A stretch of 64,000 bases of DNA, taken from Candidatus Izemoplasma sp. (GTDB taxonomy: Bacteria > Bacillota_I > Bacilli_A > Izemoplasmatales > Izemoplasmataceae). The position numbers and the translations under genes were made by a program. Below are positions 20,038-28,746 of the stretch, in pieces. The notes beneath the pieces are model-generated. The model had not been told where the DNA came from. It searched no databases and saw only the letters and a program-made list of their open reading frames with translations. Each line of letters opens with the position of its first letter. The stretch's first letter is position 1. The stretch lies in NCBI GenBank assembly GCA_036172455.1, contig JAXKVY010000001.1, positions 62,001 through 126,000 on the forward strand, in the 5' to 3' direction.

Positions 20038-21063
20038 TTATGTGATTAACATACTGTCTCCAAAACTGAAGAAACGATAGTGTCTCTTGATTGCTTCTTG
20101 ATAAGCATTCATAATAATATCTTTAGACGCTAGGGCACTAACAAGCATTAATAATGTTGATTTAGGTAAATGAAAGTTTGTAATAAGTGCATCGATTGCT
20201 TGAAAGTCATATCCTGGATAGATGAATATATCGCTATAGCCACTGGTTTCGATAAATTTATCGTGTTTCTTTATAATCGTCTCAAGTGTTCTAAGCGAGG
20301 TTGTCCCTACAGCAACAATACGTTGATTGTTTTGCTTAGCTTTGTTTAAGATATCTGCTGTAACTTGTGACATATGGTAATATTCTTCATGCATTTTATG
20401 TTCTTTAATATTATCGACACTAACAGGACGAAAGGTTCCTAATCCGACATGTAATGTAACATGTACAATGGTAATACCTGCCGTTTCTAATTCGTTTAAG
20501 AGTTCTTTTGTAAAATGAAGCCCAGCAGTTGGCGCAGCCGCACTCCCTTTCACCTTGCTATAGACAGTTTGGTAACGATCGGGATCTTCTAGCTTTTCAT
20601 GGATATAAGGGGGCAGTGGCATTTCACCAAGCGCTTCTAATATTTCATAAAAAACACCATCGTAAAGCATTTTGAATTCACGGATACCTTGATCATGCAC
20701 AGCGACACATTCTGCTTTTAAGCGACCATCACCAAAGGTAACAAGTGTGCCAACTTTGATTTTTTTAGCCTTGCGAACCAAACATTCCCATAAATCGTCA
20801 TGTTTTTGTTCTAATAATAAGACTTCAATCGATGCGCCAGTTGCTTCTTTAGTTCCAAATAATCTTGCCGGAATAACTGATGTGTTGTTTAAAACTAGAA
20901 CATCGTCTTTTTTTAAATACGATAAAATGTTTGAAAATATATCGTGCTGTGTGTTACCGGTTGTTTTATCAAGGACCATTAATCGTGAATCACTACGATT
21001 TTTTAAGGGTGTTTGCGCAATTAAATTATCGGGAAGTTCATAATTAAAATCTTCTAACTTCAT
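20038..21063 (-). CDS. queA: S-adenosylmethionine:tRNA ribosyltransferase-isomerase
   Basis: Enzyme of 341 residues that uses the ribosyl group of SAM to turn preQ1-34 in tRNA into epoxyqueuosine. It has the N-terminal [30 protein letters not shown] near 55-70, and the signature [13 protein letters not shown] near 175. Full length. The ATG shares one base with the ruvB stop (TAATG), the ruvB-queA order known in Bacillota. It works directly after Tgt in queuosine synthesis. The last reduction step (QueG or QueH) is not in the window. Confidence 0.96.
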
Positions 21064-22067
21064 TAAAATAACCTCATGTTATGTTTTTTCTTTAGGTGTT
21101 TATAGGCTTTATCTGTTGCGACACGACCTCTTGGGGTACGCTTAATAAAACCAATTTGTAATAAGTAGGGTTCATAGACATCTTCTATTGTTGTAGGTTC
21201 TTCTCCGATGGATGCGGCTAAACTTTCTAGTCCGACAGGGCCACCTTCAAAGTTTTCTATAATCCCGAGTAAATACGCATGATCTTTGGCATCAAGACCA
21301 ATATGATCAATATGTAATTTATCGAGTGCAAGCTCGCACATATCTTTAGAAATTACGCCATCATTTAAAACATCGGCAAAATCTCTGACACGGCGGAACA
21401 AACGATTGGTAATTCGGGGTGTACCCCGGCTTCTTCTAGCAATTTCAGAGGTAGCATCTTCATGAATGGTTGTGTCATATATCCGCGCTGTTCTTGCACA
21501 AATTTCAGTAAGTTCATTTTCAGTATAGTAAGTTAACTTGTGTACAACACCAAAACGATCACGTAAGGGGGCACTTAAATCACCGAAACGCGTTGTTGCA
21601 CCTACAAGGGTAAAAGGTGGCAACTCAACACGGATAGATTTTGAGGTAGCATCATGCCCAACGACGATATCAATGACAAAATCTTCCATCGCAGGATACA
21701 GAATTTCTTCAACAATACGAGGGAGACGATGAATTTCATCAATAAATAGGATATCACCAGGTTCTAGACTTGTTAAAATAACCGCCAAATCACCACTACG
21801 CTCGATTGATGGTCCACTGGTTACTTTTATATTGACACCAATCTCATTGGCGATGATGTTCGCCATAGTTGTTTTCCCTAGGCCAGGTGGGCCATAAAGC
21901 AAAACATGATCAAGTGACTCATTCCGATGTTTTGCGGCAGTGATAAAGATATTCATCATCTCTTTCACTTCGCTTTGACCAATATACTCAGTTAAGTACT
22001 TCGGTCGTAAGGAATGGTTTTCGATATCTTCAGCTAAGGGTTCTTCTGTAAATACATTTTCATTCAT
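21063..22067 (-). CDS. ruvB: Holliday junction branch migration helicase RuvB
   Basis: AAA+ motor of 334 residues that drives branch migration with RuvA. It has [12 protein letters not shown], Walker [12 protein letters not shown], Walker [10 protein letters not shown], the sensor [18 protein letters not shown], and a C-terminal winged helix ([14 protein letters not shown]). An in-frame TTG at 22092 is unlikely. The ATG at 22065-22067 has a GAGGTG ribosome binding site with 6-base spacing. ruvA, normally immediately upstream, is missing; a divergent gene lies there. Confidence 0.96.
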
Positions 22068-22150
22068 ATGCAACACCTCATGCAAATTATACAATAAATA
22101 GCCATTTTTGCCAACTATTTTATGTTTCTTCTCATAATAAAAACTCGATA

Positions 22151-22179
22151 TTGTATATTTTTCTGTTCTGTGATAAAAT
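22151..22179 (+). promoter_or_regulatory. Promoter of the coiled-coil gene pair
   Basis: TTGTAT (22151-22156) and TAAAAT (22174-22179) are 17 bases apart, and TGA precedes the -10 box as an extended -10. About 40 bases separate it from the first ATG. Confidence 0.7.
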
Positions 22180-22225
22180 TATGTAAAGGAACGGCTTAAT
22201 TAGAACATATCAAGGAGGTGCACAA

Positions 22226-25200
22226 ATGGGCAAAGATGGATTACAGTCATATGATATCGGATCATACGATATACAAATTGACTACGATAAAAAGACAACA
22301 CCAATTGAAAAGAAAATTCAGACATTAGAAAAAAGACACCAACAAAAGTCTGATCGAGCCCACAAGGCTTTTTTAAAGAAACAACAAACAACAGACAAAA
22401 AAATTAACACCTTACGCGAAAAAAACATTGTGCGCAACCAAAAACTTGATAAAGCCACGGAGAATAAAGTTGAGAAAGTCCAAAAGAAAATTACACGTGC
22501 TAAAGACGATTATGATAAATTTGTTGAAGCAAAAATCACCGAAAGAGATGCTAAAATTGCCCATCACCAAGAAGAGATTGATAACTTAAAGGTTGCTGAA
22601 CAGGAAGATATCCAAGAGATTCAACAAAAATACAAAGAGAATATCTCTTCATATGTTGAGAAACTTGATATTTATAATGATAACTATGAAGATAATATTG
22701 ATCACTATCAAAAAGAGATTGACGCTTTCTTATCGGAATTAAACGAACATCAAGAAAATATTAAAAATCATCAACACGCTACGCTTGATGCTTTGAACGA
22801 TCAGTTTCGCGCATTTAATGGCTTGATAGAATCACGTAAAAACACACGCAACAAAGAGTTTTCAACGCATATTTCTGAAAGCATGTCATATACTAATAAA
22901 GTGCGTCATGAAGCAAATAACCAAATTCAAAAACTACGGGAATTTATTACATCATTCACTCAAAATATGACAGAACACTACGAATCCGAAATAGAACAAT
23001 ATAATACTTATATTAAAGAGAAAAAGCTAGCCCATAGTCAAAAAATAGAGTTGATTGATAAAGATAAATCGATTCAGTTAGAAAAACTTATGAATCAAAA
23101 AGAAGAATTGAGCGATTCTAATAATAAAAAAGCATTGAAGCATGTGGATATGAAAATCAACCTTTTTGAAGAACGGGCTAAGATATCAAAACAATTTGAA
23201 ACAAACCTATTTAATCACCAACTAACGTTTCTTAAAGATGAAAAAAAGCGTGTCATTGAATGGCGTGATCATGAAAAAATCAACTTGAAGAAATTAGAAA
23301 TATTTTTAGAACTAGACCAACAAGAAATAAAAGATTTTGTTGAGTATTATGATGAGACAAACCAAGCATTATTAAATGGGCAAAAGCAATTAGAGATGGA
23401 TCAGTTTGATGCGATTAAACAACATGAGTCACGGCGTAAAGCATATCTTGAGTCACAACTTGAAGCATATACAGCCTATCAAGACGCATTGATTCAATTA
23501 AATGACACACATTTAAATGTATTAACAGACCATTATCATGAGGTTGATAAAATCAACCAATTCCTCGATACAGCTGAGCCTAAAAAAGAAATTGAAGTGA
23601 ACCAACTAAAAGAACGACTAGAAATTAAGGAAACCAAACAACGTTTTGCTGTGAAGTATGCAAAACAGAATCATGATATTGCCTTGATTAAAATTGATTA
23701 TGATACCCAGTTTGAACTTGAAGCCATTGAACGTGATCAAACAATCGCTCATTTTCAACAGTCGATTGATAAACTTTATTTAGAACGCGATTACGACAAA
23801 GAAGTTAATGAGGCGAAATTACAATATGACATTGCCTCAGAACATCACAAAGTTTTGATGAATAACCGTAAATTAGAGCGCCGTTTGTTGGACAGTCAGT
23901 TTGATACAAAGGAACAGATTTTAACACATCAAAAAGAGATTGCAGAACTAGATGTCCTAAGAGAAAATGCATTAGAACAAAAAGAACTAGAGTATGAGAT
24001 AAAAACCATTAAAAACGAAGCAAATTATAAAATCGAAGTCATTAACAAAGGTCTTGAAGAAGACTTATTAAAGCATGAAGAGGATCTAACTAAAATCCGT
24101 AATGAAATAAATGCTTATAAGGTAAATCTTGATACGATGATTCATAACAAAAAAGCGGATATTGAACAACGTAAGCAATCGATTCTTGATCAGTATCAAG
24201 AGAATTTAAGTAAAATTGATGATGCCTTGCAACGTGAAATTAAAGATCCAAAAATACGTTTAGAAGAATCAAAACACTTGATTGATACCCGTATTGAAAC
24301 ATTTAATAAACTCAATATTAACTTTGTGAAACATATGAATGACTTACTCGCACCATATCAAGCGACTGCTTCTTTTGATATTGAGACTGCGAGAAAAAAT
24401 GTTTTAAAAGATATGCGTTTTCAATCACATGTAACAGATTATATTAAAGAATCGTATACGATATTAAATGATGCTGTAACATTTATGCATGATATAACGT
24501 TACGCCGTATCGATAACAAAATATCACAAACACGAGATAAATCTGCCTTAAAGAAACTGAAAAAACAACGTCAAAAAGCCATTGATAAATATAAACGTGA
24601 GAGTAAAGACATTACAACAGCTACTAAAGATTATGTCGTTGTAATGACATCGCGCTTAGATACTGCATGGAAAAAATTTAAAAAGGCCAATATTACCTCT
24701 CATGATATATTTATAGAGAAGTTAACTGTCCTTTATCACCAAATATTTGATGTATTAAAACACTTTCAAGAAAATGTCATTAAAGAAACTAAAATGAAAT
24801 ACGAACCACTCACTGAAACAGATCAAAAGATGATTGAATATGCAAAAGAGAGTGCTATCAAAGCAAAAGCAAAAATCAAAGCATCACAAGCCAATGCTTT
24901 AGCCCCATTAGATGATGAATTTAATGCGTTTGTTAAAGATAAACAAGCGCAAAAAGAACAAGAGCTTAATGCATTGTATAAATCCCGTGATGAACTTAAA
25001 GCTACCATCCAGCACTTAAAGAATGAGGCATTACAGAAAGTTAAAGAAGTGAATCATGTTAAGACGCAAAAACTTGCACCTAAGTTCGAGAAGAAATCTG
25101 CTTTAGAAGCCTCGTTAGAGGCTGATGTTGCTAAGCGGAAAAAAGCGATAGATGATGGCATTAGTCAGCTAAAAGAACTGTACAATCAAAAAGTACGTGT

Positions 25201-25813
25201 TTTAGACGATAAGAATACCGAAGCTAAAACGATACTTTCTTACGAAGAAAATATTTATAAAATGGCTCAAGAAAGTGCTAAAACACGCCTTTCAGATAAT
25301 ATTGAAAAGGCCCAAAATGCCTACCGTGCAACCATGCAAAAACTAGCCAAAAAACAAGGGCGAATCGAGTCAAATAAGAAAGAACAAACCCGTGATGTAA
25401 AAGCACATCTTAAAGACACCTCACGCGTGGATGAGATTACGACTGAAGTCAGTATTAAACAACAGATCCAAGATGTTAAACATCGCATTGATAATGAAGT
25501 TACTGACAAAGAAAATGAATTAGCACAATTACATGATAAAATTCATACCTTACTCCAAGCTGCTGAAGACACACTTTATACCAAACTACAAAAAACAAAA
25601 GATGCTTTAACTGAGAATCTAGAGCATTATCTTGATGATTGCCAAGCGTATATTGAACACTATAATGCCTTTGCAAGTCAAGATAATTCATTAACTATAA
25701 ATAATCTTACAAGCTTTAAAGCCGCCTTAAACACTGTTAAAGCAGAAAAATATGTAACTACTACTGACGCGTTAGAAAAGACTAACAAATCACTTTTTGA
25801 AGAGGAGGAATAA
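22226..25813 (+). CDS. Giant coiled-coil protein A, 1195 residues (unknown function)
   Basis: I do not recognise a family. After a short non-helical head (residues 1-25, with SYDIGSYDIQIDYD) the chain is almost entirely charged alpha-helical sequence rich in K, E, Q, N, D and I/L heptads. Only two tryptophans and one cysteine (DDCQAY near the end) were seen. There is no signal peptide, membrane segment or Walker motif, so it is not an SMC/Rad50 ATPase. The coil is interrupted near 705-722 (LLAPYQATASFDIETAR). A strongly basic stretch lies near 771-796. The ribosome binding site AAGGAGGTG is near perfect, which suggests strong translation. The next gene starts 2 bp after its stop. A cytoskeletal or scaffold role is plausible but unproven. 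Confidence 0.85.
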   Translation: MGKDGLQSYDIGSYDIQIDYDKKTTPIEKKIQTLEKRHQQKSDRAHKAFLKKQQTTDKKINTLREKNIVRNQKLDKATENKVEKVQKKITRAKDDYDKFVEAKITERDAKIAHHQEEIDNLKVAEQEDIQEIQQKYKENISSYVEKLDIYNDNYEDNIDHYQKEIDAFLSELNEHQENIKNHQHATLDALNDQFRAFNGLIESRKNTRNKEFSTHISESMSYTNKVRHEANNQIQKLREFITSFTQNMTEHYESEIEQYNTYIKEKKLAHSQKIELIDKDKSIQLEKLMNQKEELSDSNNKKALKHVDMKINLFEERAKISKQFETNLFNHQLTFLKDEKKRVIEWRDHEKINLKKLEIFLELDQQEIKDFVEYYDETNQALLNGQKQLEMDQFDAIKQHESRRKAYLESQLEAYTAYQDALIQLNDTHLNVLTDHYHEVDKINQFLDTAEPKKEIEVNQLKERLEIKETKQRFAVKYAKQNHDIALIKIDYDTQFELEAIERDQTIAHFQQSIDKLYLERDYDKEVNEAKLQYDIASEHHKVLMNNRKLERRLLDSQFDTKEQILTHQKEIAELDVLRENALEQKELEYEIKTIKNEANYKIEVINKGLEEDLLKHEEDLTKIRNEINAYKVNLDTMIHNKKADIEQRKQSILDQYQENLSKIDDALQREIKDPKIRLEESKHLIDTRIETFNKLNINFVKHMNDLLAPYQATASFDIETARKNVLKDMRFQSHVTDYIKESYTILNDAVTFMHDITLRRIDNKISQTRDKSALKKLKKQRQKAIDKYKRESKDITTATKDYVVVMTSRLDTAWKKFKKANITSHDIFIEKLTVLYHQIFDVLKHFQENVIKETKMKYEPLTETDQKMIEYAKESAIKAKAKIKASQANALAPLDDEFNAFVKDKQAQKEQELNALYKSRDELKATIQHLKNEALQKVKEVNHVKTQKLAPKFEKKSALEASLEADVAKRKKAIDDGISQLKELYNQKVRVLDDKNTEAKTILSYEENIYKMAQESAKTRLSDNIEKAQNAYRATMQKLAKKQGRIESNKKEQTRDVKAHLKDTSRVDEITTEVSIKQQIQDVKHRIDNEVTDKENELAQLHDKIHTLLQAAEDTLYTKLQKTKDALTENLEHYLDDCQAYIEHYNAFASQDNSLTINNLTSFKAALNTVKAEKYVTTTDALEKTNKSLFEEEE

Positions 25814-25814
25814 T

Positions 25815-28718
25815 ATGGCAAAAGACAAAGACCTTTCTTTACCAAAAGTGATTAAAGATGCTGATAAACAAATCTCAACAATCATTGAAAAAGATATTGA
25901 GGCTGAGTCAAAACTTCTTAAGCAATTAGTAGATGATGTCCTCGAAGCGAATATGGAGATTAAAAAACGTAATAACGAGCGTATTACCTCAACACGTCGT
26001 AAGTTACGCGAGCTTAATGAGGAGATTGAAGCCTTAAATCACACGATTGATACCGTTGATCGTGAGACGGTTGTCGAACAGTTAAATCACATGATTGATG
26101 CAGAGAATATTATATACAATGCGAAGAAACAAATTCGTTTTTTTGAACAAGTACAATTATCTGATCGCCTCAATACAACAAAAACCCTTTATCACCAGTT
26201 TCATAACCAGGTTCTAACAATGAAAACTACTGAATTGGCTTTTAGTGATTTGTTTAGTGAGCACAATATGATTCTATTTGGCCAACAAAAAGCCTTAACT
26301 GAAGAGGTTGTGTCACATTTTGTGCATAACCATCAAGAAAAAATCCAAACCATAAAAGACCAACTTGATGCACTAGGTGAAAAGCGCACACAATTAATTA
26401 ATGAAGAGAAAAGTTATTTTAACACCATCGAACAGAAGCTTGAAAGGATCGATGACATAAAAGCTGCTTCTTCTGCACATTTCTCTGATGTTGAAGACGA
26501 TATTAATATAAGTGAAAAAGTTGAACAAGACCATCAAAATAAACTCAAACAGATTGAAGAGAAAAAAGAAACGTTAAAAGATACTTACGAAGCTAAACAA
26601 ATGGAAATTAAACAAAACTTTGCAACCTACTATCAAAAACAAAAAGAAAAACTTGAAGCTAATAATAAAGAGGTCATTGAACAAGAAAAAGCAGACATCA
26701 AAAATAAGAATGAACAATTAAAAAAAATTAAACTACGTATTATTGACGCAGAAAAGAAACAGAATTATGGCAAAGTCCAACAACTTATGCGTGAGTATGA
26801 CCAAGTTGAAAAATCTAAAAAAACGAAAGTTGTCAGTAAAACAGAAAAAGAATTAGAAATTACAACACGCAAACAAAAAGAAAAAACGATTGATGCACTA
26901 CGTGATCTCAAACTTAAATATGAAAAAGATTATATGCATCAAGAATATTTATTAGAACTTGCTGACATTGAATATGAAGAAGCCAAAATATTGTATAAAA
27001 TCAAACAAGATCGGGATGCCTTACAAGACAATATGACAATAAGTAAAAATGTCTTTAATGAACTGACAGAATTACTGAAGACAAGAAAACATAAAGGCGA
27101 TATAATCGCAAAAAAAAGATTAAAACTACGTTTAGAAGAATTAGACGTTATGAAATCTTATGAACATATTGAATATAGTGATTATGACTTTTATCAGCCA
27201 CTACTTGAGGGCTTATTTAAAATGAGTAAGAAACGCTATGAACAATTAGTTCAAGAGATTCCATCCTTTCAGAGATTATCACACTTTCAACAATATTATG
27301 TAGATTTACAAAAAGCGCAGCTCGATTTTTACCAACAAGTTGAACAACTTGATCGGCAAATTTTAAATAAACAAAATCAATCCATTATTGAAATTGAGAA
27401 ACAAAAAGAATCCATAAATTCAGAGATTATCTATCAAGAATCCTTAATCTCTGTGGCTCAAAAAGAAAATGAACTACAACGTATTAAAGTCAATGCCTTA
27501 TATGAAAACGAGCGTTCCTTAGCTGAAGAACAGGCTGACCGCATTGAACTTGGGATAAAGGTTAATGATACGTTTGTAAAATCAACCTTAGAAAACCAAC
27601 TTTTATTCGCTACTCAACAGATGGAATGCGCTAAAAGCGAGTACGATATTAGACTTGAAAATATTGCGCTGACTAAAGAACAAGAGATGGCTTATGCACT
27701 GCGTAAAATCGACTATTATAGTCAAAAATATGACTATGATATTCATCAGTTAGAAAATGAACGGGATAAAAAGTTAGAAGATTTAGAATTTAAACGGTTA
27801 TTATTTACCGATAAAAAAGACAACATAAAAATTGAACAATCAATTGAAAAAATTCAAACATCTTTTGACGAAAAAATTCAGAAAATACAAAAACAACGCG
27901 ATAGTGACCCCGATATCAAACGATATCAAAAAGTTATCGATGATGCTGAAAAACGCGCTGATGAAGCGATGAATGAGGCAGAAAAACTTAAAAATGAAAC
28001 AGTCGATGCGTTTCAATTACTATATGATCAAACCAAAACAAAGTTTGATCGCATCAAGAAAACGAATCACGCAGAAGCCACTGAAGGCATTGTACCACTT
28101 CTCAATACGAGTGCTGTTTCTTCTGCCAATGATCGATTGAAAAATGCGGTCGAAGAAGCTGACGAGTTGTATCAAGAGCGCATTCAAAAACCTCAAGAAG
28201 AAATTAAAAAACTAAAAGAAGCTTTGCTTAAAATTACAAATGATGAAGAAACGGATGCTTTCATTAAGCAATTAAAAGAGGAAAAAGCATTATTAGCTAA
28301 GCAATTGAATACAACAAAATCAAAGCTCAAGCAATCACTTAATGATGCACTTGAAGACTCAGATAATGCCATAAAAGGATTTCCATTAGAAATGATTGAG
28401 AGACCTAACCCTGTTAGGACTAAACAACAAATTAATGATGATTATGACGTTATTAAAGAACGTGAAGAACGTGAATATAAAGATCACATCAAAGCCAGTA
28501 AATCACAGTTAAAGAAAGATTTGAAGACACATAAGAAAGATGTTAAACGGCTAAATAAAGCAATCAAGAAATCTTTAAAACCATACAAGAAATATATTCG
28601 ATATGCATCTAAAGGGTTACGAGCTGAGAAAAAAGAATTAATGAAGAAACACAAACGTCAGCTTCAAAAACATTTAAAAAAAGTACAAGATCAGTTTATA
28701 CCCGATTTAGACCTATAA
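25815..28718 (+). CDS. Giant coiled-coil protein B, 967 residues (unknown function)
   Basis: No family is recognised. Like its partner it is nearly all charged coiled coil, with one cysteine, no tryptophan seen and few prolines. An aromatic-rich break lies near residues 453-479 (EYSDYDFYQPLLEGLF). A proline-containing hinge lies near 857-872 (FPLEMIERPNPVRTK). It ends in an exceptionally basic tail (about 893-962) with many Lys/Arg and almost no acid clusters. No membrane segment, signal or nucleotide-binding motif is present. The ATG at 25815 follows GAGGAGG with good spacing; an upstream in-frame start inside gene A is less likely. The pair forms an isolated two-gene transcript ended by a terminator. 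The products probably act together. Confidence 0.85.
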   Translation: MAKDKDLSLPKVIKDADKQISTIIEKDIEAESKLLKQLVDDVLEANMEIKKRNNERITSTRRKLRELNEEIEALNHTIDTVDRETVVEQLNHMIDAENIIYNAKKQIRFFEQVQLSDRLNTTKTLYHQFHNQVLTMKTTELAFSDLFSEHNMILFGQQKALTEEVVSHFVHNHQEKIQTIKDQLDALGEKRTQLINEEKSYFNTIEQKLERIDDIKAASSAHFSDVEDDINISEKVEQDHQNKLKQIEEKKETLKDTYEAKQMEIKQNFATYYQKQKEKLEANNKEVIEQEKADIKNKNEQLKKIKLRIIDAEKKQNYGKVQQLMREYDQVEKSKKTKVVSKTEKELEITTRKQKEKTIDALRDLKLKYEKDYMHQEYLLELADIEYEEAKILYKIKQDRDALQDNMTISKNVFNELTELLKTRKHKGDIIAKKRLKLRLEELDVMKSYEHIEYSDYDFYQPLLEGLFKMSKKRYEQLVQEIPSFQRLSHFQQYYVDLQKAQLDFYQQVEQLDRQILNKQNQSIIEIEKQKESINSEIIYQESLISVAQKENELQRIKVNALYENERSLAEEQADRIELGIKVNDTFVKSTLENQLLFATQQMECAKSEYDIRLENIALTKEQEMAYALRKIDYYSQKYDYDIHQLENERDKKLEDLEFKRLLFTDKKDNIKIEQSIEKIQTSFDEKIQKIQKQRDSDPDIKRYQKVIDDAEKRADEAMNEAEKLKNETVDAFQLLYDQTKTKFDRIKKTNHAEATEGIVPLLNTSAVSSANDRLKNAVEEADELYQERIQKPQEEIKKLKEALLKITNDEETDAFIKQLKEEKALLAKQLNTTKSKLKQSLNDALEDSDNAIKGFPLEMIERPNPVRTKQQINDDYDVIKEREEREYKDHIKASKSQLKKDLKTHKKDVKRLNKAIKKSLKPYKKYIRYASKGLRAEKKELMKKHKRQLQKHLKKVQDQFIPDLDL

Positions 28719-28746
28719 AAAAATGCGCTAATAAGCGCATTTTTAT
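28719..28746. terminator. Bidirectional terminator between coiled-coil operon and deoB
   Basis: AAATGCGC / GCGCATTT stem (28721-28742) flanked by an A-run and a T-run. Confidence 0.85.

Follow-up and report, generated by a model that had tools for sequence, protein, structure and literature searches.

Among the systems described so far, Scy and FilP of Streptomyces are the nearest in kind to the gene pair analysed here, since both are long, non-heptad helical scaffold or cytoskeletal proteins encoded by adjacent genes (PMC9858780). Scy itself, whose gene adjoins filP, has more than 1000 residues and consists almost entirely of hendecads (PMC9858780). The period of an undistorted alpha-helix is 3.63 residues, and hendecads lie 0.03 away from it, whereas the period of heptads is 3.5 (PMC9858780). 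Crescentin and the intermediate-filament-like proteins are also long, helical and motor-less and are thought to shape cells internally; crescentin is a heptad coiled coil with a stutter and has about 457 residues. Its basic N-terminus is needed for membrane attachment (PMC10873595). Another giant helical protein is HMW2 from the attachment organelle of Mycoplasma pneumoniae, where the number of residues sets the length at 0.15 nm per residue (PMC8191905).

The locus that we compared with these systems belonged to a Candidatus Izemoplasma genome of 1.69 Mb; the window, meaning the whole 64,000-nucleotide stretch of DNA that was analysed, corresponded to G000:C1:62001-126000. It contained two adjacent genes, hereafter A and B, which apparently represented a real, order-wide and so far undescribed pair of the Izemoplasmatales. 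Searches of the open-licence literature on Izemoplasma with coiled coils or ScpA/SMC did not turn up this pair. The features of the locus were as follows.

22152-22180, + strand: possible promoter, TTGTAT-17-TAAAAT with TG before the -10 (from sequence)
22213-22221, + strand: Shine-Dalgarno site of A, AAGGAGGTG (from sequence)
22226-25813, + strand: gene A, predicted helical rod protein of 1195 residues, order-specific family
23537-23593, + strand: A signature, residues 438-456, EIDxIxxFLDTxExxK (from orthologue conservation)
25803-25810, + strand: Shine-Dalgarno site of B, GAGGAGGA, within the 3' end of A (from sequence)
25815-28718, + strand: gene B, predicted helical rod protein of 967 residues, order-specific family
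27498-27665, + strand: conserved core of B, residues 562-617 (from orthologue conservation)
28416-28715, + strand: C-terminal 100 residues of B (charge computed over orthologues)
28719-28744, + strand: intrinsic terminator, 11-pair palindromic stem flanked on either side by T/A tracts (from sequence scan)

The two open reading frames had the lengths given in the preliminary description of this DNA (1195 and 967 codons). The gap between them was 1 bp rather than the reported 2 bp, as the TAA stop codon of A occupied 25811-25813 and the ATG of B started at 25815. The promoter had been called a consensus one, which was overstated: the candidate matched 8 of 12 consensus positions and was below the threshold of the promoter scan. 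On the other hand, the strong ribosome binding sites of both genes were confirmed and turned out to be over-represented among the orthologues: of the 38 orthologues each of A and B, half had a Shine-Dalgarno match of at least 6 nt, versus 12% of 171 control ORFs. The closing terminator was also confirmed, and since its stem was palindromic, it could be used by the convergent deoB gene as well. The ruvB-queA genes located upstream of A were divergent from the pair, and the deoB-xerD-hemW-lepA genes downstream of B were convergent with it. The same arrangement was observed in families f1 and f3.

The same pair was found at the same place and with nearly the same length in nearly every Izemoplasmatales genome. 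A protein search in 61 genomes detected A in 23 genomes and B in 35; direct reading of the loci revealed many pairs missed by the sequence search that had the right size, pairing, orientation and site (f1 and f3). A profile search with B matched 72 of the 90 genomes of the order. With a B profile enlarged by the f2 sequences, B was found in 49 of 55 sampled order genomes, that is, in all but about six, a count that leaves out noise-level matches in G006 and G030. Outside the order, no match to the B profile exceeded 29 bits among approximately 340 genomes, and class-wide hits were at most 29 bits. Thus, at the search sensitivity used, the pair is absent elsewhere in the class. A scan of named genomes turned up one close relative.

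The pair in family f2 was first spotted by its size and place and later by profile comparison. Namely, the first f2 gene scored 96.9% against the A profile, 2.7% against the reversed control and 0.3% against B, and the second scored 97.5% against the B profile, 0.4% against the reversed control and 7% against A. By these comparisons the f2 pair is remotely homologous to A and B, with an unambiguous one-to-one match. The pair was apparently inherited vertically across the order; as a group, the relatives neither lacked it nor carried it in decay.

The dN/dS ratios were 0.09 (A) and 0.08 (B) in comparison with locus L041 and 0.18 (A) and 0.15 (B) in comparison with L060. Judging from the sequence data, A and B are real genes under purifying selection. 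The opposite reading, in which they are open frames that arose by chance or the decaying remains of charged low-complexity sequence, has in its favour the low identity between distant orthologues, which drifted to 10-30%, and nothing further. It is contradicted by the dN/dS values of 0.08-0.18, by the conserved Shine-Dalgarno sites and by the one-to-one synteny and lengths across three families, and we give it practically no credence.

No family in Pfam, NCBIfam or PDB fitted A or B, in agreement with the initial statement that the proteins had no known domain; a clear match to a characterised family did not occur. In particular, neither protein matched SMC in Pfam or NCBIfam, DivIVA gave no Pfam hit at E up to 1, and a hit to ASRP reached 20 bits (cut-off 300) and covered a helix stretch only. 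A few A orthologues (1-5 of 28, the window protein not among them) had weak Pfam hits: Baculo_PEP_C at 3e-6, Apolipoprotein at 5e-4 and Prominin at 1e-3. The match to Apolipoprotein (PF01442) was not significant, its best E of 5e-4 being reached in 3 of the 28. Foldseek against PDB returned low-TM helix matches only (query-normalised TM below 0.14), which we set aside as evidence. The earlier claims that the proteins had neither a Walker motif nor a membrane segment were correct: a sequence scan found no Walker A motif in A or B, and no membrane segment was detected, the maximal 19-residue Kyte-Doolittle mean being 0.66 (A) and 0.60 (B).

AlphaFold2 models of A and B contained long helices only; they were built on two sequences (the window and L041) and had low confidence (pLDDT 60, pTM 0.26-0.29). 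By prediction, both proteins are almost entirely helical. Their hydrophobic period was 3.62 (A) and 3.61 (B) and stayed at 3.61-3.63 across all orthologue groups including f2, whereas the same computation gave 3.49-3.50 for the SMC arms of three genomes from the same class. In the A profile, 300-residue windows kept a period of 3.63, the autocorrelation peaked at 11, 18, 29 and 40, and two periodic rods flanked a weakly periodic stretch at about 440-600. The latter was bordered by the A signature with its nearly invariant D441. The long-range periodicity of the B profile was weaker than that of A and split between 3.59 and 3.74. The conserved core of B followed the pattern SLYENE...Q.ER...VN..FV.TT...Q..FA.QQI..A..EY..R.E.I.

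There was no heptad peak in the periodicity of A or B. Since the period was 3.62-3.63, as in an undistorted alpha-helix, and not 3.50, the helices are probably nearly unsupercoiled, with the hydrophobic stripe running almost straight along the helix. Thus, of the original description as almost pure coiled coil, the long helices were retained as a prediction, but the coiled coil is not of the classical heptad type. With a period of 3.62-3.63 and the A peaks at 11, 18, 29 and 40, the pair shared with Scy the character of a long non-heptad rod, and the statement that no comparable pair was familiar was therefore too strong in view of Streptomyces Scy-FilP (PMC9858780). Alanine made up approximately 17% of the hydrophobic residues in A and B, whereas the core of hendecad dimers has been described as rich in Ala. 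B is far longer than FilP. The N-terminal motif GYDxxEVD that defines the DivIVA-like superfamily was found in none of the 43 A and none of the 43 B sequences, even when a loose pattern was used; A and B are therefore not members of this superfamily, although they may work in a similar way. In comparison to crescentin, A and B were 2-3 times longer and non-heptad, so the heptad-with-stutter character was missing, and no sequence relation was found.

The same periodicity could be read differently, as amphipathic helices that coat the cytoplasmic side of the membrane in an apolipoprotein-like manner and stiffen or curve it. Apolipoprotein-type proteins have a hydrophobic period near 3.6-3.67, as do A and B with their non-heptad 3.62-3.63; a wall-less cell has to support its membrane, and the weak Pfam hits mentioned above were to amphipathic-helix families. 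However, these hits concerned 1-5 of 28 members and not the window protein, and hendecad-type coiled coils have almost the same period (PMC9858780). Moreover, the helices of A and B were much longer than those of the apolipoprotein type. Their near-fixed spacing and the scarcity of indels over hundreds of residues suit a packed rod better than loose lipid-bound helices. We consider a membrane lining rather improbable.

The length data were as follows. Over the order, A had 1166 +/- 25 and B 965 +/- 15 residues. In almost all B orthologues, the landmark spacings were 33 (E31-L64), 47 (E566-R613) and 109 (R613-A722), and in A the spacing between D866 and L1062 was 196 in nearly all f1 sequences and 192 in f3. 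At about 32% identity, internal indels occurred at 0.20 per 100 aligned residues in A and at 0.34 in B, while the controls at 39% identity, the flanking housekeeping enzymes hemW and xerD, had 0.29 and 0.59 per 100 residues. Therefore, indels in A and B were comparable with or rarer than in these enzymes. The B indels corresponded to whole helical turns in 56% of cases versus 30% expected; the trend in A was weak (38%). Comparison of net and gross indels revealed no compensation beyond chance, so the constraint was visible as a rarity of indels and not as compensating pairs. Fast substitution with few indels fits a rod that is constrained in length and phase.

Because of the gene pairing, the predicted helicity, the non-heptad stripe and the length constraint, we favour the reading in which the two proteins are subunits of a cytoplasmic rod or scaffold system peculiar to the free-living, wall-less Izemoplasmatales, and we assign it a probability of roughly 50%. 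The pair would then belong to a known kind, the long helical scaffold proteins, and its function is our proposal made from sequence. The preliminary description had placed the pair in a lineage related to wall-reduced bacteria, and indeed a relative in the family of the host, Xianfuyuplasma coldseepsis zrk13, is wall-less and coccoid with a size of 300-800 nm (PMC8397711).

In such a scaffold, the stripes would let long, nearly straight helices bundle as A-A, B-B or A-B, the last of these contacts being suggested by the gene pairing. The bundle would be a stiff rod with a length set by the gene: with 0.15 nm per residue, A could reach about 170 nm and B about 145 nm at most. Inside cells that have no wall and are a few hundred nanometres wide, such a rod, or a polymer of rods, could serve as a scaffold, a spacer or a ruler. 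The A signature around residue 441 and the B core at 562-617 might mediate contact or nucleation, and the basic C-terminus of B could provide an anchor to the membrane or to nucleic acid. As no nucleotide-binding site was recognisable, the scaffold would work without a motor. A role as a scaffold, like the formation of a filament or skeleton proposed earlier, is what we infer from these properties. HMW2 offers a precedent for a giant helical protein serving as a ruler in a wall-less bacterium (PMC8191905); the organelle to which it belongs is an adhesion structure of a motile parasite, whereas zrk13 is described as non-motile and free-living (PMC8397711). A bolder version, in which A and B form a two-component cytoskeleton of wall-less bacteria, of a previously unknown type whose rod length is encoded in the genes, is possible but doubtful.

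Free-living wall-less bacteria must keep their shape and order the cell interior in the absence of peptidoglycan. The pair was present in many genomes without MreB, and all order genomes tested were without Smc. As an order-wide pair of giant rods encoded at a constant site, A and B are a concrete candidate for part of this work. With its near-fixed spacing and non-heptad design, the pair would also add a new case from nature of long helical rods with almost no supercoiling. Since the cultured strains zrk13 (Xianfuyuplasma) and zrk29 (Hujiaoplasma nucleasis, from another family of the order) carry the pair and natural losses exist, the question is directly testable. The host genome had three consecutive mreB genes at G000:C2:271515-274558; the same triple was found in G009, G011, G013, G025, G029 and G031, whereas the remaining order genomes tested lacked it. 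Dependence of the pair on MreB was rejected, because the tandem mreB genes were present in only some of the genomes carrying it.

With respect to Smc, none of 51 order relatives reached the SMC_prok_B cut-off, whereas 25 of the 40 genomes from other parts of the class did, and ScpA was found in none of the 36 order genomes tested. This raised the alternative that the SMC-sized A and the basic-tailed B passively bridge or compact DNA, being encoded beside ruvB and xerD. The absence of Smc and ScpA agrees with it, as do the SMC-like length of A, its two rods around a weakly periodic centre and the C-terminal 100 residues of B, which, with few exceptions, were basic in the f1 and f3 orthologues. 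However, these residues were nearly neutral in f2, so the basic tail was not conserved there. Furthermore, A and B had no ATPase heads or Walker motif, the genome had no kleisin, and the helix period was unlike that of SMC. Smc was also missing from the class families f5, f7, f9, f12, f16, f18 and f20, where A and B were not found; thus, Smc loss did not track the gain of A and B. Finally, ruvB, queA, deoB and xerD were also near one another in other families (L128, L131) and look like ordinary ancestral neighbours. A chromosome organiser is accordingly unlikely, and its radical form, in which rods without heads or ATP dependence would organise the chromosome throughout a bacterial order that has lost Smc-ScpAB, is less likely still.

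The amount of the two proteins and their dispensability had to be considered as well. Among 354 ORFs, codon usage, measured by a C-ending codon index instead of a CAI with ribosomal reference genes, ranked A at the 42nd percentile and B at the 22nd, which does not support the abundance implied in the preliminary description. In G015 the pair was cleanly lost, with ruvB 11 bp from deoB (L111 3239-5454), and in G035 it was cleanly lost with only a membrane-protein gene between ruvB and deoB (L109 4933-8558). G006 kept a 702-residue A-like gene (L113 10680-12788) and had no B. These genomes were draft assemblies with contigs that spanned the site. The clean losses in at least two genomes mean that the pair is dispensable in some lineages and, together with the moderate codon usage, do not support an abundant, essential skeleton. 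They would also suit a non-polymerising, lineage-specific tether or polar scaffold of low copy number, such as a spacer between the membrane and a complex, for which the short conserved signatures could be docking sites. Nevertheless, none of the genomes read had a partner gene linked to the pair, and nothing positive indicated a particular cargo, so we regard a tether as improbable and retain the rod or scaffold system as the preferred reading.

Several candidate relationships of the pair were examined and rejected. In most of the other class families read, a ruvA-sized gene preceded ruvB, on the side that the pair occupied in the window (ruvB at 21063-22094). Replacement of RuvA by the pair was rejected since ruvA was located elsewhere in the genome, at G000:C1:38701. 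A helix protein of 1205 residues beside ruvA in G080 (L127) was not detectably homologous to A or B by profile comparison, and one of 1279 residues in G062 (L125) failed the same comparison. The former protein (L127 7387-11004) had a period of 3.63 and was encoded divergently from ruvA-ruvB in a Smc-less genome of another family. Paralogy of A and B was not supported either: hhalign gave 97.5% for A against B, yet 98.3% for A against its own reversed profile, so the A-B score may reflect helix bias. The C-terminal part of the B profile (about 740-974) weakly matched the A N-terminus in several genomes, with E down to 6e-10, which may be due to helix bias or to a partial common origin. In several relatives (L043, L045, L047, L050 and L078), a predicted membrane protein of 460-464 residues, MATE-like by eye, was encoded between deoB and B.
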